Position numbers and translations under genes: made by a program. Below, one piece after another: positions 6,741 to 18,541 of a stretch of 64,000 nt of DNA. The stretch covers positions 490,814 to 554,813 of the forward strand of contig JAIXUD010000009.1 of NCBI GenBank assembly GCA_027483645.1, read 5' to 3'. The notes beneath the pieces are model-generated. The model did no database searches, had not been told where the DNA came from, and saw only the letters and a program-made list of their open reading frames with translations. Every line of letters begins with the position of its first letter. Position 1 is the first letter of the stretch. This DNA comes from Sphingobacteriales bacterium (GTDB lineage Bacteria; Bacteroidota; Bacteroidia; Chitinophagales; CAIOSU01).

Positions 6741-7220
6741 TCAATCATTCTGCTTTAACAACAGCAATGGCCGGTTGATGCTCTCCTCTAACGATATGAG
6801 CGTCTCCGTGCGGTTGATGCCCTCAATGTATTGCAGCTTGTCGTGCAGTACCTGTTTCAAGTGGTTGGTATCGCGGCACAGCATTTTTACGAACATGCTG
6901 TAGGTACCCGTGGTATAGTTGCAGCCTACCACTTCGGGTATATCCTTCAGGGCAAGCACCACGCTATCGTACATGCTGCTTTTATTGAGGAATATGCCGA
7001 TGAAGGCAGTAAGCCCATAGCCCAATCGCTCGGGGTCAATATTTACTTGGCTACCTTTTATAATGCCTAGGTCCATCAGTTTTTTTACACGCACATGCAC
7101 GGTGCCGCCCGAAACGAACACTTTCTTGGCGATTTCCGTATACGGCATCTGTGCATCGTTCATTAATATAGAGAGTATCTCCATATCAAGCTTATCAATT
7201 TCCAAATTTAGCGCCACCAT
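6741..7220 (-). CDS. Lrp/AsnC family transcriptional regulator
   Basis: DNA-binding regulator of amino-acid-related genes. The N-terminal winged helix-turn-helix is visible (LDMEILSILMNDAQMPYTEIAKKVFVSGGTVHVRVKKL, residues about 12-50), followed by the RAM/AsnC ligand-binding domain (GYGLTAFIGIFL through IEGINRTETLISLEES). At 159 residues it has standard length. It runs directly into the WbqC-like gene, suggesting co-transcription. About 85 bases upstream, on the opposite strand, begins the promoter of the tRNA-like RNA unit, so a divergent regulatory region is shared. Effector amino acid unknown. Confidence 0.92.
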   Translation of the reverse strand: MVALNLEIDKLDMEILSILMNDAQMPYTEIAKKVFVSGGTVHVRVKKLMDLGIIKGSQVNIDPERLGYGLTAFIGIFLNKSSMYDSVVLALKDIPEVVGCNYTTGTYSMFVKMLCRDTNHLKQVLHDKLQYIEGINRTETLISLEESINRPLLLLKQND

Positions 7221-7303: not shown

Positions 7304-7334
7304 TTGCAACGAAAGGTATAAAGTAGTAAATTTG
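7304..7334 (+). promoter_or_regulatory. Promoter of the tRNA-like RNA unit
   Basis: TTG at 7304-7306, a 20-base spacer, then TAAATTTG at 7327-7334: an exact fit to the Bacteroidota -33/-7 pattern. The predicted start of transcription is close to 7341, where the inverted repeat begins. Confidence 0.6.
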
Positions 7335-7340
7335 TCATCA

Positions 7341-7417
7341 GTTAGTTAATCGGTTTATCTGTTGATCAGTTAATCACGTAAAAATTACCAATCAACTGAT
7401 AAACCAATCAACTAAAT
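7341..7417. repeat. Imperfect inverted repeat built of iterated words
   Basis: The left arm (7341-7369) reads TTAGTTAATCGGTTTATC... and the right arm (about 7388-7417) is its reverse complement with about five mismatches in 29 positions. Each arm is itself an iteration of GTT(A/G)AT(C/T)-type words. It lies between the promoter and the tRNA-like RNA, so it would form the 5' stem of that transcript. The same word family (AACCAATCAAC) recurs near 1160-1205 and 28910-28930. Confidence 0.65.
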
Positions 7418-7424
7418 ACAATAT

Positions 7425-7552
7425 TGTTGGGTGATGAAACAGGCAGACGTGCCCTCCCGTCCCGAGGGTGAGGAGCTTGGGACAAATCCCTGGAGCGCTC
7501 AAGCGCAACGGAGACTAACCACCTCTTGAAGGTTCGAATCCTTCCCCAACAG
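7425..7552 (+). ncRNA. tRNA-like RNA with aberrant anticodon and very long variable region
   Basis: The ends fold like a tRNA. A 7-bp acceptor stem pairs TGTTGGG (7425-7431) perfectly with CCCAACA (7545-7551), and the T arm is GAAGG-TTCGAAT-CCTTC, with a consensus T loop. The D arm (ATG-AAACAGGCAGA-CGT) closely resembles that of class II tRNA-Leu. The middle does not fit: the would-be anticodon arm is CCCTC-CCGTCCC-GAGGG with C instead of U at position 33 and GTC in the anticodon position. The variable region is about 59 nt and holds two small hairpins (GGGA-CAAA-TCCC and GCGC-TCAA-GCGC). It has its own promoter and terminator. It may be a specialised tRNA-like RNA or a decayed tRNA-Leu; it is not tmRNA, SRP RNA or an obvious tRNA-Sec. 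Confidence 0.55.
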
Positions 7553-7573
7553 CATAGCGGGTTTCATTAATGG

Positions 7574-7610
7574 CAGAATGCCTGGCTTCATAGCTGGGCA
7601 TTCTGTTTTT
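7574..7610 (+). terminator. Intrinsic terminator after the tRNA-like RNA
   Basis: A 9-bp stem CAGAATGCC / GGCATTCTG (7574-7582 with 7597-7605) is followed by TTTTT. The interior can extend with GCT/AGC around a TCAT loop. Confidence 0.8.
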
Positions 7611-8299: not shown

Positions 8300-11200
8300 A
8301 TGAGAAACGTTAACTTACTCTCGGTTGCAACCACTGCCCCCCCATCGTGGCCGAAAAAATTAACACAAACGGGTAACTTTTACTCGTTAGCTGCAGGACT
8401 CATGTTCCTGCTTTTGTTGTTTGCGGCACCCAATTATGTAAATGCCCAGGGTTGTACTACTGCCTGGCCGGGTACCACAGTCAATAGCAGTCCGGCAAAC
8501 TTGAATAATCCAGCGATTACGCCAACTTATTCGAGTTCTCAAAATATTGGGCCCGGTAACTTCTTTTATTTTAACGCTTACAATGGTCTATCTTATGAGT
8601 TCTTCAACTGTAACTCAGGTAACTGGGATACCGATGTACTCATTTATAGAAACGACAATGGCGGCTATCTAGCAGGCCACGATGGTTTTAGCACTTGTGG
8701 ATGGCGCTCTAGCAACAACCTGTGGACATCTGGTTACACAGGTCAGGTTAGGGTTGTTATGCCTTTGTATGCAAACTGTGCCGCTAGCTACGGATGGAAC
8801 AACACCCTTACCTCAACGGTAATGCAAGTGCGCGAAACTGCGGTACCTGCCCCCCCAACACCAACAAGCGATGGAAATACTTGCGGCAACGTAACCATTA
8901 GCCGTGCCGCCCCGCCAACAGGCTATACCTACTACTGGCAGACCAGTGCTTCTGGCGCAGTTGCTAGCAACTCAAACCCAACCTATACTTTCACCGCCAA
9001 CGGTTCAAACACTGTTTGGCTTCGCACTCTAAGTGCCTCTGGTAACTGGAGTGGAACCTTATCTTCTATTACTGTAAACGTTAACGCAGTACCAGCAGCA
9101 ACTTCGGTTGGTATTACTAGCGGCACAAGCGGCCAATGTGGCGGTAGTATCACGCTAACTGCTTCGGGCGGCGCAGGCGGTACGCTTAGCTGGTCGGGTA
9201 CAACGAGTAATGGTGGTATAATTAATACTACCAACCCTCAAGTGGTAAATGCTACTGGCACCAATACCTATTATTTTAGGTCTGTTAATAATGGTTGCTC
9301 TGGTGCTGAAGGCGCTGCAACAGTAACCATTAACCCAGTACCGGCAGCTACAACTGTTGCAGTTACCAGCGGCACTTCTGGCCAATGCGGTGGCAATATC
9401 CAATTAACTGCTTCTGGTGGTGCAGGTGGCACGCTTAGCTGGTCGGGTTCAACCAGTAATGGTTCCATTATTAATACCCTTAACCCTCAAACCGTAAGTG
9501 CCACTGGCACCAATACCTATTATTTCCGTTCAGTAAGTGGTGCAGGTTGCTCAGGTCCTCAAGGCAGCGCAACCGTAACCATTAATGCTATACCTGCTGC
9601 TACAACTGTTGCCGTTACCAGCGGTACCTCTGGCCAATGCGGTGGCAGTATCAACTTAACTGCTTCTGGTGGTGCAGGTGGTACGCTTAGCTGGTCGGGT
9701 TCAACCAGTGGTGGCCCTATTATTAATACTACCAACCCTCAAACCGTAAGCGCTACTGGCACCAATACCTATTATTTCCGTTCAGTAAGTGCTGCTGGTT
9801 GTGCAGGTGCTGAAGGCAGCTCAACCGTTGTGATTAACCCTGTACCTGCGGCTACAACCGTTGCCATTAGTAGCGGCGCATCTGGCCAATGTGGTGGCAC
9901 CATACAGCTTACCGCATCAGGCGGTAGTGGTGGTACCATACAGTGGTTGGGCAACGTAAGCGGTGGTCCATCCATCAATGCACTTAATCCTCAAACAGTA
10001 AACACTTCTGATACCTATTATTTCCGCTCAGTAAGCGGTGCTGGTTGCGCAGGTCCTCAAGGCAGCCAAGCGGTAGTTATCAATATTGTACCTACCGTAG
10101 CGGGTACTACCACCGGCGCAGGTACTTATTGTACCAATGGCACCGTGCCAATTAGTGCAAGCGGTGGCACTGGTACTATCTACTTCCAAGGTACTAACTC
10201 AAACTTGGCAACTGCAACAAGCACTGGATTGGGCGGCGGTTCGCAAAACGTAAGCAGTAGCGGAACCTACTACTTCCGTAACCAAAGTGCCCAAGGTTGT
10301 TGGAGTGCTACTATGGCTTCTGTAACCGTAACTATTAATTCGGTTCCAGCTGCAGTAACGGTAACCAATGCTTCAGGTAATGCTTTCGGCTGTAATGGCA
10401 CAGCTACCCTAAATGCATCTGGTGGTGCTGGTGGTACTATTTACTGGCAAAATATCACATCCAATGGTACAAGCACTGCAACCCCTTCTGCTTCACAAGT
10501 AGTAACAAGCGATAATACTTATTATTTCCGTTCTATATCAGGTGCTGGTTGCCCTGGTCCCCAAGGCAGCTTTACGGTAGACGTAGTGCCTGCTGTTAAC
10601 CTTTCAAACGGTGCAGGTACTACCCAATCAACTTGCGGTGCTAGCAATGGTACAGCATGTGTAACTGCTACAGGTGGTACAGGTTCGTTTACTTACGCTT
10701 GGGCCGGCGGCGGCAGTAGCGCTTGTAAGGCTAGCGTGCCTTCTGGTAGCTACCAAGTAACCGTAACCACTACTGGTGGTAGCGGTTGTAATGCGGTAAC
10801 CAGCATCAACGTAACCGATGCAGGTAGCCCAACAGCTACTACTAATGCTCAAACCAACGTTTCTTGCTTCGGTGGCAACAATGGTAGCTATAGGATAAAT
10901 GTAAGCGGCGGTACCCCACCATACGACCTAGTATGGTCTAACGGAGATCTTAATTTCGGCGTAGCTGCAGGCTTGCACAGCACCAGTACTGGCTTATCTC
11001 AAGGGTTGATTTCTGTTGATGTAACAGATGCCAACGGATGTAGCTCTTCTGCTTCTACAACCATTACGCAGCCTACCCAGCTGACCGTTTCAGTAGGCTC
11101 GGTTACCAACGTACTTTGTAATGGTGCCAGCACTGGTGCCATCAACATTAATGTTGGCGGTGGCACAGGTACTAAAACCTATGCTTGGACAAGTGGCCAA

Positions 11201-14200
11201 ACTACAGAAGATATTACTGGCCGAGCTGCTGGTACCTATGGTGTAACCGTAACCGATGCAAACAGTTGTGTTGCGTCTTCAACCGGCATAGCCATTACCC
11301 AGCCTGCAGTAATTGCACCTACTAGCACTGTAACCAATGTATTGTGCTTTGGTGGCAACAATGGTGCCATTGACTTGAGTGTAACTGGTGGTGTAAGCCC
11401 TTATGGTTATGCTTGGAGCAATACCGCAACTAGCCAGGACGTATCTAGCTTAAATAGCGGTGCTTACTCAGTAGTAATTACTGACGCTAACAGTTGTACC
11501 GTTTCTCATGCTAGAACAATTACCCAACCAGCATCTGGTGTTTCTATCGCGGTTACCAACGTAACCAACGTATCTTGCTTCGGTGGTAGCAATGGCGCCG
11601 TAACCATAGCAGGTTCAGGCGGTACTGCTGGCTACACCTACGCAATCAATGCAGGTGCATTCGGCCCTACAGCAACCTTCTCTGGCCTAGCTGCTGGCTC
11701 TTATACCTTCAGGGTGCGCGACGCAAACCTTTGCGAAAACTCAGTACCAGTAACTGTTAGCCAGCCTGCTGCAACACTTATACCTACCATTACTTCCATT
11801 ACCACAATTACCTGTAATGGAGCTTCAACCGGTGCGGTTGACCTAAGTGTAGCAGGTGGTACTCCAAACTACAGTTATGTATGGTCAAACGGTGCTACTT
11901 CGCAAGACTTAAGTAACGTAGTAGCCGGAACATACACGGTAACCATTACCGATTTCAACAGTTGTACTGCAAGTATTTCGGCTAACGTAACCCAAGTTGG
12001 AGCCCTATCGGCAACAGCTTCGGTAACCAATGTAACTTCTTGCCAAGGCTTTAGCAATGGCGCTGTAACCTTTACCCCAGCAGGAGGTAGTGGTTTGTAT
12101 GCCTACTCCATTAACGGTGGTGTTACTTACCAAACATCTGCTACCTTTACAGGCTTAGCTGCTGGTACTTATAGCCCATTCATCAGGGATAATAGCGTAC
12201 CAACTTGTGCCGTTGCATTGGCTCCGTTTACCGTTACCCAACCGGCTTCATTACCTGCTCCAACGTTGCCTGGTGGCTCCACTTATAACTCTTGCGGTTT
12301 GCTAGTAGTAAACGTGAACCCACAAGGCGGCGCTACACAGGCTATATTGCACAATGCCGTACCAGGTGTTGGTACCGCAATAGATACCAACACGGCATTC
12401 TTATTCAATAATTTGACTGCTGGTAACTATACTTTCTATACTACCTCTTACAACCCCACCACACAATGCCAAGGTACTGCGTTTACTAGCTTTACCGTAG
12501 CAGTGGTTAACCCAGTATTAGTTGCTGGTAGCGTAACCAATGTTACTTGCTTCGGTGCGCAGAACGGTGCAGTAAATATTACCCCAAGCGGTGGTACAGG
12601 TACCTATACCTACAACTGGGCACACGGACCAACCACCCAAGATTTGGTGAACGTTGGCGGTGCTGCTTACAACGTGGTGGTAACAGATGCCCAAGGATGT
12701 TTTAACATCGGTTCATTCCGAGTGGTTGAATTTGCACCGGTTAACGCTAGCATCAATGTTAGCTCAATCAATGGATACGTTGTAAGGTGCTTCGGTGACT
12801 CTACTGCTCAACTTTCAGTAGCCGCAACTGGTGGTAACGGAACATACACTTACCTTTGGAATGATGGCAGCACACAAGCTACTAGGAATGATGCCTACCA
12901 AGGAAACTTTAGAGTAACTGTTACTGATGGACAAGGTTGTGCCATTGTTAAATCGACCAATCTTTTCCAACCACCAGTATTGGCCTTAAGTTTGCAAACA
13001 TCATACTTCTGTAGTGGTGGTGGCTATTCTTCAGCAACGGTACAAGTTACCCCAGCTGGCGGCCAAGCACCATATCAGTATAGCTTAAACCAAACAGCTT
13101 TCCGCCAATCAAGCAACACGTTTAGCAATTTGGCAAATGGTTCAACCAACACGTTCTATATATTTGACGCTAACGGTTGTCAAAAACAGGCAACAACTAC
13201 TATAGCCTTCCCTGCCCCGGGCTCTGCGGTTGGTTCATGCGACTTTATTTATGTAGCACCAGCAAGTGAAGGTGGCGACGTAAATAACGCAGGTACCCCT
13301 GATTGCCCTACCACTTTGGCACAAGCCATGGCTTTGGTATCTCCAACCAGGAATTACATTAGGTTGTTGGGCGGTGCGTCACAATACACCTATTCTACCC
13401 CAGTTGATTTAGTAAGTAACGTGACTGTAGAAGGTGGCTATACCAGAACAGGTAGTGGCGCATGGGTGAAAAATACTTCTACCCCTACTATCCTCAACTT
13501 TGTAAATGCTTATACGAACCCTGCCGCTGGTGTGGGCCATTATGCTGGCTTTATTTCAAGTGGCAGAAGCAACTGGACCTTACAGGATCTGACCGTGAAC
13601 GTACAGCAATCTGGTGCAGTAGGCACACAAGATGGCAACGGACGATCAGTTTATGGCTTGCTCATTAACTCCAGCTCGTTCAGTTACACCCTTAATAATA
13701 TCATCATCAACACAGGCAATGCCAGCAATGGTGCCAACGGTACAGTAGCATCTGATGGCCAAAACGGTGTAAACGGCGCTGCTGGCTCAGCCGGTCAGTT
13801 TATTCAAGATAATACGGGTGGTGCTGGTCCGTTCCCTGCATGTTGCGGTGGCGGTACTGGCGGTACTGGCGGCAATGGTGGTGGTACCGGTGGTACTGGC
13901 ACAGCCGACCCAGGTGCAATCACCAATGGCAATGCAAGTTCTTGCGTTCCTTATGGTAGCCCAAGCCAACGTGGCGGCGGCGGTGGCGGCTCAGGCGGTC
14001 ACGGCGGCTCTACTAGCAACGTTACCGTACAAACTACGCCTTCAGCCGGTCGTGGTGGCGGCGGTGGCCTAGTATCAGGTACATGTGGCCACAATGCCGC
14101 AAGTCCAGCAGTTCCTGTTAATACTTCAACCGGATTCATTTACTACTTCTACAGCCAACCACAACCAGCACCAGTACCAAGCGGTGTTAATGGTATCAAT

Positions 14201-17200
14201 GGCTCAAACGGTTCCAATGCCTCATTGAGCTACACCCCAGGCGCAAGGCCTAACATTGCTGCACTAGGTCAGTACTTTGTACCTGGCAAAGGAGCTAACG
14301 GTGGTAGTGGCTTTGGTGGCGCTGGCGGCTCTGGCGGCGGCGGTACCGGTGCGGTAATAGTAGATGGCCGTAGCGGTTCACCATCATTCCTTAACATAGT
14401 TCGCGGCTCAGGCGGCGGTGCTGGTGGTAGCGGAGCTGAAGGTGGCCAAGGCGGCGAAGGCGCAGGTGGCGGCGGTTCAGCATTCGGTGTATATGTATCA
14501 TCAAATTCTTTGGGTGGCGCATCGCTTACAGGCGTAATCGTTAACTCTGTTGGTACAGGCGGTATTGGCGGTACAGGCTCAGCAGGCGGCAACGGCGGTA
14601 CTGGTGGCTTTGGCGGCCAAGGCGGCCCTGCAATGTCTGATGCTCAATTGGGTATCGTTCTTACTAGCCCTGCCGGCAACGGTGGCTTAGGTGGTAATGG
14701 TGGAGCCGGTGGCCGTGGCCAAGATGGCGACAATGGCACTGCATCAGCAATTTACTATGGCGGTGCAGCAGCTCCTGCACAAACCCCAGTTGGTAGCAAC
14801 GGTACAGTTACTGTTAGTACCATCAAAGCTTGTACTAACTCAGTTATCCCAATAACCAAAACAAGCAATGATAACTGGACGATTACTGGTGGTAACTTCG
14901 TAAATAACATTACCAATACCACCTCTTCTTTCAATGCTTCTTCCGATACTGCTTCAATCTGGTATAACTCGGTAGGTAATAAAAACATAAGCGTTGGTGC
15001 GGTGAGCTACCCATCTTTCATAAAAGTAACTGGAACAAGGCCACTACCTGTAATCAGCAGTGCTCCTTATGGTTCTGTATGTCAAGGAAGCACTATCAAC
15101 CTTACTACAAGCACAACTGGTTTGGAATATCGTTGGACAGTTTCTAATGTAGATTCTCCGTCAGTAACATTGGTTACTTTCGCAGGACCAACCATTAATA
15201 ACGTGTTGGTTGATGTTGCAGGTACCTTTATCATCAAACTTGATATTCGTGAAGAGTGCTGCGGATGGTCAATTCCAGTTTATGCTAGCGTAACTGTTAC
15301 ACCACTACCTGTAACAATGCCTACCATCAATGGTGCTGCTACAGTATGTGCTGGCCAATCGGTTACCTACAGTGCCCCGCAAACATTGTATGCTGCGGCT
15401 AACGTAAACACTACTACCGGTTACAAGTGGGTAGTACCAGCCGGTGCAACTATCACTAGTGCTGGTGGTGCAAACGGATTTATCTCTGGCGGTAACATCA
15501 ACCTTACCGTAACTTTCGGTACCAACAGTGGTGATATAACTCTTACCCCATCAAATGCTTGTGGCAATGGTGCCGTAACAACTAAAGCCATTACTGTAGC
15601 TCCTACGCCAGTAATAACTGGTATATCAGGCACCAATGCTATGTGCTCTAGCGCATCACAGGTGTTAACCCCTGTGGTAACTGGTGGTACAGGTTACACT
15701 TACCTATGGTCAACTGGTGCTACTACTTCATCAATTACGGTGAACCCCGTGGTAAACACCACTTATACCGTAACAGTAACTAATAACCCAGGTACTTGTT
15801 TTGATGTGGAAAGTAAAGCCATCACAGTATCTACAACTCCAGCAGTTGCAGGTGCAATTACTGGTTTGTCAACCGCTTTCTATGGCCAATCAGGCGTTAG
15901 TTATTCAATAGCCCCAGTTGCTAATGCAACATCTTACAACTGGACGGTTCCATCTGGTGCTAGCATCACATCTGGCCAAGGTACTACAAGTATTGTGGTA
16001 AACTTCGGTACTGCCACTTCTGGCAACGTATCGGTTACTCCTGTAAATGGTACTTGTAGCCCAGCTGCCACCAATAGGTTCGTTACTATATCTGCCGCTC
16101 CATTAGTGTGGACAGGTAATACCAACGACGAATGGTTTGTAACAAGCAACTGGAGTACTAACACTGTTCCTATCGCAACAAGCAACATCCGTATACCGGG
16201 TGGTCGTCCTAATTACCCAACTCAATACTCTGGTGCTCCAGTAGGTAACGAAATGGTAATTGAATCTGGTGCTACAGTGTCTTTGGAATTTGGCAGCGAC
16301 ATGGACTTGAACAGTAACCTGATTGTTCTAAGTGGTGCTACACTTCAATTCCCAGCACTTGCGGGCAGCACCACCACCTTGAGGGTAGCTGGTAATGTAC
16401 AATTGAATGGAACTGTAGTAGCAGGTACTGGCAAATTGTTACTTGATGGAACAACCGCTGCTCAGACTATATCTGGAACAGCAACCATACATCATTTGGA
16501 GCTCAACAACAATAATGGTGCATCAATCACTAGCGGCATGATTTCGGTTCGCGGTGGCTTAAACCTTGATGGTGGTGTGTTAACTACCAACGACCGCTTG
16601 ACCATCAAATCGGATGCTGCTGGTACTGGTTGGGTTGATAACTTCAGCGCCGGTATGAACGGTAGCATCAGTGGTGATATCATTATGCAGCGTTTCTTCC
16701 CTGCAAGTGCCAATGCAACTGCTTTCCATTACATCAGTTCGCCTGTAAATAACGGATTGGTAGTAGCTAACCTTACTGAGCTTGCTCTGTATGGCCCAGA
16801 TGGCGGACAGGTAATACCGCAATCTACCTGCGACCCGAATAACATAGCAAGCAATTCACCTTACGGTAACCTGTTTGAGTACAGGGAGAATGCAAGCTTC
16901 TTGTTTGGTTGTAACCAATCAGGCTGGCACGTACGCTCAGGCGGTGTGCTTACCAACGGTCGTGGCTATGCTGGTATCATCCGTCGTGCTTCTGACTTCA
17001 CTTTGGATATCAAAGGCACTGCCAACACAGGTAACATTCAATACAACAACTTGGCAAACAGTGGCCCAATTGGTGATGGATGGCACATTGTGAGTAACCC
17101 GTATCCTTCTCCAATTGAATGGATCGCCCCTGCAGGTTTTGTAGGTGCTGCACACTTCTTCCAATCAAGCGGATCATATACTGGTAGTTACCAGCCACAA

Positions 17201-18541
17201 TTGTCAGGTACAGGATACCAGATTGCTGCAATGCAAGGTTTCTTCATCCAGAACACTAGTGGCACCCCAGCTAACTTTGTAATGAACCAAAGCAACCGTA
17301 GAACTGGCGACCCAGCCTTCCAACGTCAAGCAAACTGGTATGACCATATCTTGAACGTAGAACTTGCTGGTAACAACTATGCCGATAAAACTACTGTTTA
17401 CTTCGGTGCCGATTGCAGCGACAACTGGGATGATATGTATGATGCCCAGAAGAAAGAAAGCCGTGTAGGACAGCCTACGTTATATACCCGCATAGCCAAC
17501 TATCCTAAGTTGGTAGGTATTAACGGGTTGCCAACCAACAACAGCCGAGTGGTTTCAGTACCTATGGGCATGCTGGCCGGTGCAAATGGCACCTTCACCT
17601 TTACCTTTACTGATATGAGCACCTTCGCTCCATCTGCACTTATCTACTTGGAAGACCTGAAAACCGGCACTATCCAAAACGTACGTGTAAATGATACATA
17701 CACCTTTACAGCTACCATAAGTGATGACCCTGAGCGCTTCATCATCCACTTCTACCCTCCAGCAACTATTGCTGCGGTTGAAGGCGATTGCGAAGGTAAG
17801 AACGGTGCAATTAACGTAGATTTAGGCGTATTTAACGTAGGTGGTTCTATCTTAACTTGGGATAGCTATGAGTTGAAAGATGCTGCTGGAATTGTGGTAG
17901 CTACTAGCACTAATGTAAACGGTGCGATTACTACTGCAAACTTGAACGCTGGTACCTATACCTTGAATTTGAACATCCAAGGTTACCTGACTAGTGAGAC
18001 AGTTACCATTACTGCTCCAGCTCCGGTTGATGCCGCTTATGCTCCTGGCTTCAGTACTGCTTATACCCAAGCGATACTTGAATTCATGAATAACTCGGTG
18101 AACGCTACTAATTATACTTGGACCTTTGGCGATGGCGCATCATCTACCTTGGCTAGCCCAACCCACATATACAGTGCCCCAGGCTTGTATGATGTGACTT
18201 TGGTTGCCAACAGTGATGATTGCTCTGATACTTACAGCACCAAAGTAGAAGTACTAGAAGTAGCAGTAGGTTTGCCTGGCGATATCAAGAATCCATTGGT
18301 TACTATTACTGGCTACCAAGACGTGGTATCAATTGGGTTCTTGAACCTGAACGATCCTACTGTACAAATCGACATCTTCGACCTAAGCGGCCGTATGATT
18401 ATCGAAACATTGACCTTGGAAACCAGCCAAAACAATCACCAAATCAAGTTGAACGCTATACCTAGCGGCTACTATTTCGTGAGGGTGTCTGGCGCTAATA
18501 CTTACCAAGATCAGAAGATTTTCTTGACTTCTGAGAACTAA
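8300..18541 (+). CDS. Giant T9SS-secreted adhesin with Ig-like and SprB-type repeats (3413 aa)
   Basis: Very large surface protein, probably a filamentous adhesin. In order: an extended signal sequence of about 50 residues (hydrophobic core AAGLMFLLLLFAAP); a Cys-containing N-terminal beta domain; six tandem Ig-like repeats of 82-85 residues (starting at 9089, 9338, 9590, 9842, 10088 and 10343); about ten SprB-type repeats (pattern NVxCFGGxNG ... GGTxPYxYxWSNG ... VTDANGC; about residues 766-1640). Next come a beta-helix-like segment (VTVEGGYTRTG), a Gly-rich region (residues about 1806-2164), more Ig/PKD-like modules, a TWTFGDG PKD domain (about 3260-3320) and a C-terminal type A T9SS sorting domain (DIFDLSGRM ... 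IPSGYYFVRV). It is followed immediately by a strong terminator, so it is monocistronic. The PorP/SprF protein near 33 kb is a plausible partner class; which one serves it is not known. Confidence 0.93.
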   Translation: MRNVNLLSVATTAPPSWPKKLTQTGNFYSLAAGLMFLLLLFAAPNYVNAQGCTTAWPGTTVNSSPANLNNPAITPTYSSSQNIGPGNFFYFNAYNGLSYEFFNCNSGNWDTDVLIYRNDNGGYLAGHDGFSTCGWRSSNNLWTSGYTGQVRVVMPLYANCAASYGWNNTLTSTVMQVRETAVPAPPTPTSDGNTCGNVTISRAAPPTGYTYYWQTSASGAVASNSNPTYTFTANGSNTVWLRTLSASGNWSGTLSSITVNVNAVPAATSVGITSGTSGQCGGSITLTASGGAGGTLSWSGTTSNGGIINTTNPQVVNATGTNTYYFRSVNNGCSGAEGAATVTINPVPAATTVAVTSGTSGQCGGNIQLTASGGAGGTLSWSGSTSNGSIINTLNPQTVSATGTNTYYFRSVSGAGCSGPQGSATVTINAIPAATTVAVTSGTSGQCGGSINLTASGGAGGTLSWSGSTSGGPIINTTNPQTVSATGTNTYYFRSVSAAGCAGAEGSSTVVINPVPAATTVAISSGASGQCGGTIQLTASGGSGGTIQWLGNVSGGPSINALNPQTVNTSDTYYFRSVSGAGCAGPQGSQAVVINIVPTVAGTTTGAGTYCTNGTVPISASGGTGTIYFQGTNSNLATATSTGLGGGSQNVSSSGTYYFRNQSAQGCWSATMASVTVTINSVPAAVTVTNASGNAFGCNGTATLNASGGAGGTIYWQNITSNGTSTATPSASQVVTSDNTYYFRSISGAGCPGPQGSFTVDVVPAVNLSNGAGTTQSTCGASNGTACVTATGGTGSFTYAWAGGGSSACKASVPSGSYQVTVTTTGGSGCNAVTSINVTDAGSPTATTNAQTNVSCFGGNNGSYRINVSGGTPPYDLVWSNGDLNFGVAAGLHSTSTGLSQGLISVDVTDANGCSSSASTTITQPTQLTVSVGSVTNVLCNGASTGAININVGGGTGTKTYAWTSGQTTEDITGRAAGTYGVTVTDANSCVASSTGIAITQPAVIAPTSTVTNVLCFGGNNGAIDLSVTGGVSPYGYAWSNTATSQDVSSLNSGAYSVVITDANSCTVSHARTITQPASGVSIAVTNVTNVSCFGGSNGAVTIAGSGGTAGYTYAINAGAFGPTATFSGLAAGSYTFRVRDANLCENSVPVTVSQPAATLIPTITSITTITCNGASTGAVDLSVAGGTPNYSYVWSNGATSQDLSNVVAGTYTVTITDFNSCTASISANVTQVGALSATASVTNVTSCQGFSNGAVTFTPAGGSGLYAYSINGGVTYQTSATFTGLAAGTYSPFIRDNSVPTCAVALAPFTVTQPASLPAPTLPGGSTYNSCGLLVVNVNPQGGATQAILHNAVPGVGTAIDTNTAFLFNNLTAGNYTFYTTSYNPTTQCQGTAFTSFTVAVVNPVLVAGSVTNVTCFGAQNGAVNITPSGGTGTYTYNWAHGPTTQDLVNVGGAAYNVVVTDAQGCFNIGSFRVVEFAPVNASINVSSINGYVVRCFGDSTAQLSVAATGGNGTYTYLWNDGSTQATRNDAYQGNFRVTVTDGQGCAIVKSTNLFQPPVLALSLQTSYFCSGGGYSSATVQVTPAGGQAPYQYSLNQTAFRQSSNTFSNLANGSTNTFYIFDANGCQKQATTTIAFPAPGSAVGSCDFIYVAPASEGGDVNNAGTPDCPTTLAQAMALVSPTRNYIRLLGGASQYTYSTPVDLVSNVTVEGGYTRTGSGAWVKNTSTPTILNFVNAYTNPAAGVGHYAGFISSGRSNWTLQDLTVNVQQSGAVGTQDGNGRSVYGLLINSSSFSYTLNNIIINTGNASNGANGTVASDGQNGVNGAAGSAGQFIQDNTGGAGPFPACCGGGTGGTGGNGGGTGGTGTADPGAITNGNASSCVPYGSPSQRGGGGGGSGGHGGSTSNVTVQTTPSAGRGGGGGLVSGTCGHNAASPAVPVNTSTGFIYYFYSQPQPAPVPSGVNGINGSNGSNASLSYTPGARPNIAALGQYFVPGKGANGGSGFGGAGGSGGGGTGAVIVDGRSGSPSFLNIVRGSGGGAGGSGAEGGQGGEGAGGGGSAFGVYVSSNSLGGASLTGVIVNSVGTGGIGGTGSAGGNGGTGGFGGQGGPAMSDAQLGIVLTSPAGNGGLGGNGGAGGRGQDGDNGTASAIYYGGAAAPAQTPVGSNGTVTVSTIKACTNSVIPITKTSNDNWTITGGNFVNNITNTTSSFNASSDTASIWYNSVGNKNISVGAVSYPSFIKVTGTRPLPVISSAPYGSVCQGSTINLTTSTTGLEYRWTVSNVDSPSVTLVTFAGPTINNVLVDVAGTFIIKLDIREECCGWSIPVYASVTVTPLPVTMPTINGAATVCAGQSVTYSAPQTLYAAANVNTTTGYKWVVPAGATITSAGGANGFISGGNINLTVTFGTNSGDITLTPSNACGNGAVTTKAITVAPTPVITGISGTNAMCSSASQVLTPVVTGGTGYTYLWSTGATTSSITVNPVVNTTYTVTVTNNPGTCFDVESKAITVSTTPAVAGAITGLSTAFYGQSGVSYSIAPVANATSYNWTVPSGASITSGQGTTSIVVNFGTATSGNVSVTPVNGTCSPAATNRFVTISAAPLVWTGNTNDEWFVTSNWSTNTVPIATSNIRIPGGRPNYPTQYSGAPVGNEMVIESGATVSLEFGSDMDLNSNLIVLSGATLQFPALAGSTTTLRVAGNVQLNGTVVAGTGKLLLDGTTAAQTISGTATIHHLELNNNNGASITSGMISVRGGLNLDGGVLTTNDRLTIKSDAAGTGWVDNFSAGMNGSISGDIIMQRFFPASANATAFHYISSPVNNGLVVANLTELALYGPDGGQVIPQSTCDPNNIASNSPYGNLFEYRENASFLFGCNQSGWHVRSGGVLTNGRGYAGIIRRASDFTLDIKGTANTGNIQYNNLANSGPIGDGWHIVSNPYPSPIEWIAPAGFVGAAHFFQSSGSYTGSYQPQLSGTGYQIAAMQGFFIQNTSGTPANFVMNQSNRRTGDPAFQRQANWYDHILNVELAGNNYADKTTVYFGADCSDNWDDMYDAQKKESRVGQPTLYTRIANYPKLVGINGLPTNNSRVVSVPMGMLAGANGTFTFTFTDMSTFAPSALIYLEDLKTGTIQNVRVNDTYTFTATISDDPERFIIHFYPPATIAAVEGDCEGKNGAINVDLGVFNVGGSILTWDSYELKDAAGIVVATSTNVNGAITTANLNAGTYTLNLNIQGYLTSETVTITAPAPVDAAYAPGFSTAYTQAILEFMNNSVNATNYTWTFGDGASSTLASPTHIYSAPGLYDVTLVANSDDCSDTYSTKVEVLEVAVGLPGDIKNPLVTITGYQDVVSIGFLNLNDPTVQIDIFDLSGRMIIETLTLETSQNNHQIKLNAIPSGYYFVRVSGANTYQDQKIFLTSEN
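9089..10595 (+). repeat. Six tandem approx. 250-bp repeats inside the adhesin
   Basis: Units begin at 9089, 9338, 9590, 9842, 10088 and 10343 (periods 249, 252, 252, 246 and 255). Units 2 and 3 share long stretches of identical DNA, for example around CTATTATTTCCGTTCAGTAA, while the last two are diverged. This is consistent with recent duplication or gene conversion in the middle of the array. Confidence 0.85.
10840..13200 (+). repeat. Array of SprB-type repeats inside the adhesin
   Basis: About ten units of 75-85 codons, each opening with a Cys motif (NVSCFGG, NVLCNGA, NVLCFGG, NVSCFGG, ITCNGA, NVTSCQG, NVTCFGA, VRCFGDS, FCSGGGY) and most ending VTDxxxC. DNA identity between units is much lower than in the upstream array, so these are older duplications. 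Confidence 0.8.

Follow-up and report, generated by a model that had tools for sequence, protein, structure and literature searches.

A tRNA-like RNA family of Bacteroidota that combines aspartate identity elements with an amidation signal, a candidate carrier for asparagine synthesis

We describe a tRNA-like RNA, represented by positions 7425-7552 of the window (the whole stretch of 64,000 nucleotides of DNA that was analysed), which belongs to a new RNA family built on a tRNA chassis and absent from Rfam. This apparently non-decoding RNA is probably a carrier for asparagine synthesis, which would be charged by AspRS and amidated by GatCAB, a chemistry that is deduced here for the RNA and is in itself known. 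Comparison of sequences gives strong evidence that the RNA has a role in asparagine supply, and this evidence comes from the identity elements of the RNA, from the AsnC-like regulator encoded beside it, and from its co-occurrence with GatB.

The transcription unit and its RNA

The sequence holds a small transcription unit (7304-7610), composed of a promoter of the Bacteroidota type, a leader with an inverted repeat, the tRNA-like RNA and a terminator, with a regulator gene diverging from it:

6741-7220, minus strand: asnC-like regulator gene (Lrp/AsnC family), divergent from the RNA
7304-7334, plus strand: promoter, with TTG at 7304-7306 and TAAATTTG at 7327-7334
7341-7417, no strand assigned: inverted repeat in the leader, 77 nt, near-perfect and AT-rich, between promoter and RNA
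7425-7552, plus strand: tRNA-like RNA, positions 1 to 73, delimited by homology and covariation, with C74 at 7553
7425-7431, plus strand: 5' side of the acceptor stem, TGTTGGG, pairing with CCCAACA at 7545-7551 (U1 is 7425, G2 is 7426)
7434-7450, plus strand: D arm, tRNA-Leu-like, with a covarying stem (7434-7436/7448-7450) and G18G19 at 7442-7443
7452-7468, plus strand: anticodon arm, with loop CCGUCCC at 7457-7463 (C33 at 7458, GUC at 7459-7461, C37 at 7462, C38 at 7463)
7470-7525, plus strand: variable-arm domain, in which helices 4 and 5 covary and the loop letters are conserved
7528-7544, plus strand: T arm, with loop UUCGAAU, mostly invariant or covarying
7552-7553, plus strand: discriminator G73 and C74, present in 63/63 matches
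7572-7607, plus strand: intrinsic terminator, a 16-bp stem and a T run (1 found, 1.7 expected in region shuffles)

The signals around the RNA recur in its homologues. Of 115 homologous loci, 37 have the motif TTG-N17-21-TANNTTTG in the 150 nt upstream of the RNA, against 1.0 expected from simple base shuffling, and 76 have its -7 part alone (13.1 expected, from the same shuffling). By a simple rule used with no shuffled control, a terminator-like structure lies 3' of 81 of 87 homologues. In the 64-kb window, the motif of the leader repeat is matched with up to three mismatches only by the two arms at 7341-7417, with 0 matches expected by chance, and by eye no long leader inverted repeat was seen in other families; it might be an AsnC operator or a genus-specific repeat. 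The first long frame past the unit is a single repeat-rich ORF of 3413 aa (8300-18541). The whole unit is unusually stable in terms of folding energy (z -4.10), which we attribute to the leader repeat and the terminator, whereas the tRNA-like part alone is not (z -1.27). The case for the tRNA-like RNA is therefore one of comparison, not of folding energy.

The region 7425-7552 forms an intact type-II tRNA-like RNA, in which the acceptor, D and T arms are all intact. The cloverleaf features of a canonical elongator tRNA, namely a 7-bp acceptor, a T loop of the form UUCRANU and G18G19, are all present, and CCA is not encoded in the gene. The variable arm starts with a 4-bp stem (7470-7473/7522-7525), followed by a 4-nt bulge (7474-7477), a 3-bp stem (7478-7480/7519-7521) and an internal loop (GACAAA, 7481-7486, facing CUAA, 7515-7518), which encloses a variable hairpin. 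Across the family the internal loop is conserved as GAYAAA/CUAA, all three pairs of the 3-bp stem change on both sides, and the terminal hairpin is free in sequence and length. We presume a likeness between this internal loop and the UAA/GAN motif, which makes tertiary contacts.

Much of this anatomy had been recognised in a sequence-only reading of the same stretch, and the promoter at 7304-7334 (both TTG and TAAATTTG), the inverted repeat at 7341-7417, the perfect acceptor, the Leu-like D arm, the intact T arm and the loop without U33 (C33, at 7458) are all borne out by the sequence, as is the terminator, now placed at 7572-7607. The covarying model replaces the two extra free hairpins of that reading by the stem, bulge, stem, internal loop and single variable hairpin described above. 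The anticodon that it called non-canonical is the ordinary Asp triplet, GUC (7459-7461), and the oddity lies in C33 and C37. Of the three interpretations that it had offered, the evidence favours the tRNA mimic, a regulatory RNA stays as a rival, and conservation together with covariation across the phylum rules out an early-stage pseudogene.

Standard tools do not recognise the RNA. ARAGORN made no call for the tRNA-like part and found no tmRNA in the window, and it called no gene in 24 loci of the family. No Rfam 15 family matched the tRNA-like RNA at the gathering score, and searches with E up to 10 returned no tRNA (RF00005) match, the sole overlap on the same strand being a microRNA model that ends at 7426. 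A known RNA family was thereby ruled out, as no Rfam match covers the interval. These checks had been suggested by the sequence-only reading, together with a search for homologues of conserved and covarying structure, and such homologues exist. With blastn, 19 of 60 genomes gave a match, the window's own included and some in part only. In 21 aligned full-length copies, 99.6% of the combinations at the 27 pairs are standard, and 15 of the 27 pairs have changed on both sides, a number reached by 0 of 500 shuffles; when the partners are slid out of register, standard pairs fall to 46.6-58.2%. RNAalifold, which was not told the structure, predicts the same helices plus one pair. With 61 distinct sequences, in an alignment fitted to the model, 99.2% of the pairs are standard and 19 have changed on both sides. 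Chance, or a pseudogene or decaying tRNA, was ruled out by the blastn homologues and this covariation.

A covariance model (E < 1e-20) detects the RNA in 40 of 395 genomes of the phylum, distributed as 17/19 in the window's order, 20/79 in other orders of the class and 3/297 outside the class, the last from one family; weaker hits, judged by their length and place, appear to be ordinary tRNAs. When named genomes were scanned with a pattern, at least 120 stretches were found, and among the 80 matches listed are Chitinophaga, Cyclobacterium, Dyadobacter, Spirosoma, Algoriphagus, Niabella, Saprospiraceae and an Ignavibacteriales MAG. These 80 loci contain 102 model matches, and the loci fetched earlier contain 64, some copies being present in two loci. 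Tandem copies occur, with five in Phaeodactylibacter xiamenensis, and plasmid records gave no match to the window copy. Two divergent forms were observed. Genome G126 (L207:1038-1114) carries a relative of 77 nt with a short variable region, no variable-arm domain and the loop CUAUCUC (AUC for GUC), possibly a re-purposed or decaying copy; no AsnC match was found in its 2.1-kb locus. In G017 (L018:1501-1638) only the 3' half is recognisable, and the 5' half is unrelated sequence. We found no earlier report of the RNA in a literature search that had subscription journals mostly, and one survey of 224 candidate RNAs, outside its scope; a word search of the main text of two bacterial-RNA surveys returned neither 'tRNA-like' nor 'asnC'.

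Identity elements of the RNA

The position counts given here are based on 63 matches (60 distinct) from searches that do not fix these positions, although the copies were still found by overall similarity; copies selected by the pattern were not used, because the pattern fixes GUC and C38, and the 77-nt relative at L207 was left out. U1, G2, U35, C36, C38, C71, A72 and G73 are present in 63/63 matches, so that the pairs U1-A72 and G2-C71 are invariant, and the same is true of C74. G34 is present in 62/63, position 37 is a pyrimidine in 63/63 and never a purine, and the anticodon loop of the family can be written as NNGUCYC. U33 and a purine at position 37 mark decoding-competent anticodon loops. 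Here U33 is found in 46/63 matches and a purine 37 in 0/63, which places the RNA outside the decoding tRNAs.

The sections of PMC9976931 that deal with these determinants give G73, G34, U35, C36 and C38 as the strong Asp determinants, a set that is complete in the RNA. They also state that U1-A72 confers amidation of Asp-tRNA-Asn, that G1-C72 prevents amidation in tRNA-Asp, and that the G1-C72 pair of tRNA-Asp is important for E. coli AspRS. G1-C72 is not found in the RNA, where U1-A72, the signal of a GatCAB substrate, occupies its place in 63/63 matches. To judge from these positions, the RNA would have a hybrid identity, with the full set of Asp determinants and the amidation signal for GatCAB. 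It does not have U36 and A37 of the Asn set, nor G3-C70, U34, G36, A37 and U38 of the Gln set. Against an Asp identity stand the replacement of G1-C72 by U1-A72 and position 10, which is mostly A in the RNA and G in true tRNA-Asp.

Set beside tRNA-Asp(GUC), the RNA has G34, U35, C36, C38, G73 and G2-C71 in common with it, and differs in having U1-A72 instead of G1-C72, a pyrimidine at 37, a variable position 33, a type-II Leu-like core and a variable-arm domain of 56 nt. With the type-II tRNAs (tRNA-Leu and tRNA-Ser) it shares a long variable arm and with tRNA-Leu the D arm, whereas its G73, its GUC triplet and the bulge and internal loop of its variable arm set it apart, as does its going uncalled by ARAGORN and by the tRNA model of Rfam. 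With tmRNA it shares a tRNA-like end joined to an added domain, and it differs by its complete and covarying anticodon arm; an mRNA-like tag frame and a missing anticodon arm would define a tmRNA, and none was called in the window. The genome also has a genuine tRNA-Asp, with G1-C72 and A37, so the RNA is not needed for decoding, and a replacement of the decoding tRNA-Asp was ruled out on this basis. The native tRNA-Asn of the genome has U1-A72, so this observation does not separate a route on the RNA from one on tRNA-Asn charged by a non-discriminating AspRS. In genome G000, contig C21 (26675-27867; L186, L188, L194 and L205) contains a compact cluster of tRNA genes (Pro, Asp, Arg-ACG, Gln and Gly-ACC) with a phage-like look, which holds the second tRNA-Asp of the genome.

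Genomic neighbourhood and co-occurrence with GatB

The gene divergent from the RNA had been called lrp in the sequence-only reading. The best NCBIfam model for its protein is AsnC (NF008384), at 170.7 bits against 61.1 for Lrp, and its best PDB match is E. coli AsnC (2cg4, E 1.2e-34); the AsnC score is below the curated cut-off of 227, so the neighbour can be called AsnC-like, not certified AsnC. Of the 105 cellular loci that include 800 bp or more of upstream sequence, 74 have a divergent AsnC-like gene within 600 bp, at a distance of 129-376 bp from the RNA (median 163), and the other 31 contain none. The AsnC model matches all 44 proteins scanned, namely 43 of the 73 that were located plus the one from the window; all 44 also match LrpA, more weakly at best (6e-54 for AsnC and 9e-28 for LrpA), the ranking of the two being known for the window protein only. 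In 24 further loci an AsnC match was found in 16, including all three of a distant family, f68 (L208, L209 and L210), and none in 8. When neighbouring genes were clustered, using 79 of the 80 listed loci, the AsnC-like gene was present in 50/79 and the next clusters in 9/79. A recurrent neighbouring transferase was considered and rejected, as none occurs at a comparable frequency. Beyond asnC, genes that by eye look like SufB and SufC were seen in L111 and other loci (clusters of 9 and 6 of 79).

This arrangement is similar to that of E. coli asnC and asnA, which are divergent with 151 bp between them, close to the median of 163 bp found here, and a passage of PMC4482635 reports that E. coli AsnC activates asnA and that Asn abolishes the activation. 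The difference is that an RNA gene stands where the gene of asparagine synthetase A would be; by analogy, the RNA appears to hold the place of asnA beside an AsnC-type regulator.

Copies are also carried by viruses. The RNA pattern is present in 102 stretches of viral contigs, and 79 of the 80 viral loci searched (L261-L340) carry the RNA at E < 1e-20. Ten proteins from eight of these viral loci were scanned, and three of them, from two loci, are phage portals or terminases. After dropping two truncated loci (L271 and L316), 74 of 78 viral loci keep U1, G2, U3, A70, C71, A72, G73 and C74, and 38 of 78 have one or more tRNA calls nearby, one of the 38 resting on an uncertain ARAGORN call. An AsnC-like protein match was found in none of the 78, which indicates that the RNA also travels without the regulator, as a tRNA-like supply item, and the viral copies are possibly an auxiliary metabolic RNA. 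Named phage records gave no match to two viral copies used as queries.

The presence of U1-A72 led us to predict a link to GatCAB before GatB was searched. In the following, RNA+ and RNA- denote genomes with and without a detected tRNA-like RNA. From the 395 genomes we selected 80, namely 35 of the 40 RNA+ genomes (E < 1e-20; G204, G306, G416, G432 and G444 were left out), the ambiguous G126, 20 RNA- genomes of the class, including ones of the window's order, and 24 of the 294 RNA- genomes outside the class. GatB was found over cut-off in 35/35 RNA+ genomes, and so was AsnRS, with GlnRS in 29/35 and both synthetases in 29; in most RNA+ genomes, GatCAB is thus left without an evident job in translation. 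Among the 20 RNA- genomes of the class, 19 are without GatB, all 19 having AsnRS and GlnRS, and the exception (G096) has GatB and no GlnRS. This link, the set of GUC, C38, G73 and U1-A72, and the AsnC-like nature of the neighbour are what the sequence-only reading had missed.

The distribution of asparagine synthetase has to be read with GatB in mind. E. coli-type AsnB (NF006949) is over cut-off in 0/35 RNA+ against 15/20 RNA- genomes of the class; the match in G086 crosses two stop codons. Across the 80 genomes, also outside the class, this AsnB is present in 18 genomes and missing from all 57 that have GatB, with the RNA or without; its absence thus goes with GatB and is not specific to the RNA. 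In addition, AsnB-like paralogues over the TIGR01536 cut-off are present in 31/35 RNA+ genomes and may make Asn. Among the 24 RNA- genomes outside the class, 20 have GatB over cut-off and seven (G071, G087, G094, G186, G201, G232 and G320) have GatB, AsnRS and GlnRS together, which means that this set does not by itself demand the RNA; GatB is perhaps kept there for the tRNA-Asn route.

A sample of 149 genomes of the order, overlapping the phylum sample, was scored with E-value limits of 1e-50 for GatB (111 of the 114 above its curated cut-off) and 1e-60 for GlnRS (84 of 85). GatB is present in 66/69 RNA+ genomes; the three without it are assemblies of 350-530 contigs, one of which (G493) is rated 99% complete. 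The 85 genomes with GlnRS comprise 48 with both the RNA and GatB, 2 with the RNA only, 10 with GatB only and 25 with neither, the Fisher test and the family counts for this association ignoring phylogeny. Both are lost jointly within families: f18 has 13 genomes with both and 5 or more with neither, f21 has 14 with both, at least 2 with neither and 1 with GatB only, and f23 of the first sample has 5 with both and 3 with neither. Of the RNA- genomes of the order with GatB, 38/48 are without GlnRS, and there GatCAB may serve tRNA-Gln. The other ten have GatB and GlnRS without the RNA, as judged by the model, and a piecewise search of one of this kind, G515, revealed no RNA in 0.617 of about 5.1 Mb. 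NF006949 is found in 2/149 genomes, whatever the RNA, which leaves 23 genomes with GlnRS that have neither the RNA, nor GatB, nor this AsnB as a source of Asn. In G283, contigs C10 and C19 have two full-length AsnRS-like genes, and the RNA, GatB and an AsnB over cut-off were not found there.

A carrier for asparagine synthesis and its alternatives

In the mechanism that we consider probable, the RNA would be matured like a tRNA and loaded with Asp by AspRS, and U1-A72, taking the place of the G1-C72 of true tRNA-Asp, would let GatCAB turn the RNA-bound Asp into Asn. An RNA with a GUC anticodon that carried Asn would put Asn at Asp codons and so has to be excluded from the ribosome, which the loop without U33 and with a pyrimidine at 37 and the bulky variable arm are predicted to achieve. 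The Asn would then be released from the RNA to feed AsnRS and metabolism, and the AsnC-like protein may sense Asn and regulate the RNA in the way that AsnC regulates asnA in E. coli.

The nearest known pathway is the synthesis of Asn on tRNA-Asn by AspRS and GatCAB, described in parts of PMC4206432 for Deinococcus, Thermus and Bdellovibrio, the AspRS of the last being non-discriminating. The same parts place Bacteroidetes among the genera that have AsnRS, GlnRS and GatCAB and no Asn synthetase, and that possibly make Asn on tRNA-Asn. The predicted enzymes, the U1-A72 signal and the presence of GatCAB beside AsnRS and GlnRS are common to that pathway and to the one proposed here, whereas the carrier proposed here is a separate RNA that has C38 and the Asp triplet GUC, for which a discriminating AspRS would suffice. 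As this RNA is seemingly non-decoding, the Asn has to be released instead of being used directly.

The closeness of the two routes gives the leading alternative, which we regard as unlikely and still deserving of some weight. The RNA would bind AspRS and GatCAB (or AsnC) but not act productively as a carrier, and would serve, for example, as a regulatory sensor of Asp/Asn charging or as a scaffold for an Asn transamidosome acting on tRNA-Asn that is charged by a non-discriminating AspRS. The non-discriminating AspRS of Bdellovibrio and the set of AsnRS, GlnRS and GatCAB without an Asn synthetase in Bacteroidetes, as given in those parts of PMC4206432, are consistent with it, and so are the U1-A72 of the native tRNA-Asn and the seven RNA- genomes outside the class that keep GatB beside AsnRS and GlnRS, as a tRNA-Asn route allows. 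The conserved variable-arm domain could, in addition, be a protein-binding site. However, invariance extends over the charging determinants, the acceptor end and G73-C74, which is more than binding alone seems to need. A weak argument in the same direction is that, at two positions that we presume to decide tRNA specificity, the AspRS of G192 agrees with E. coli AspRS and differs from the Asp/Asn enzyme of P. aeruginosa; the alignment to solved structures covers this one RNA+ genome, other RNA+ genomes vary at the first position, and as a marker of discriminating versus non-discriminating AspRS these residues are only suggestive.

Non-ribosomal uses of aminoacyl-tRNA are known, and the exclusion of the RNA from decoding would also fit a donor role, in which the RNA, charged with Asp or Asn, would supply a transferase for a peptide, a lipid or an envelope component. 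We think this improbable, given that no transferase recurs nearby at a comparable frequency (the AsnC-like gene is in 50/79 loci and the next clusters in 9/79) and that the association with GatB and AsnC speaks for free Asn. More doubtful still, and in our view very improbable, is a decoy or spare substrate, against anticodon nucleases or for phages: it accords with the RNA being in 79/80 viral loci, 38/78 with a tRNA call nearby, but leaves the linkage to asnC, the invariant acceptor determinants and the co-occurrence with GatB in cells unexplained. An unusual decoding tRNA-Asp or a decaying tRNA-Leu, which the GUC triplet and the Leu-like D arm might evoke, is scarcely credible, since the genome has true tRNA-Asp and tRNA-Leu genes, a purine never occurs at position 37, position 33 varies, and the covariation excludes decay.

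The carrier reading can be extended to the proposal that a dedicated RNA cofactor, of hybrid identity, barred from the ribosome, standing in the place of asnA and carried by phages, has taken over asparagine synthesis in much of Bacteroidota, which would explain the presence of GatCAB beside AsnRS and GlnRS without an E. coli-type AsnB; for this wider statement, we hold the case for and the case against to be evenly poised. To our knowledge, known tRNA-dependent amino-acid synthesis uses decoding tRNAs. If the carrier reading is true, a tRNA would have acquired a new role, and living metabolism would contain an RNA cofactor, in the form of a non-decoding tRNA-like RNA retained for biosynthesis alone. 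For part of Bacteroidota, this would also suggest an answer to a question left open in the relevant part of PMC4206432, namely what GatCAB does in genomes where it is found beside AsnRS, GlnRS and often an Asn synthetase.
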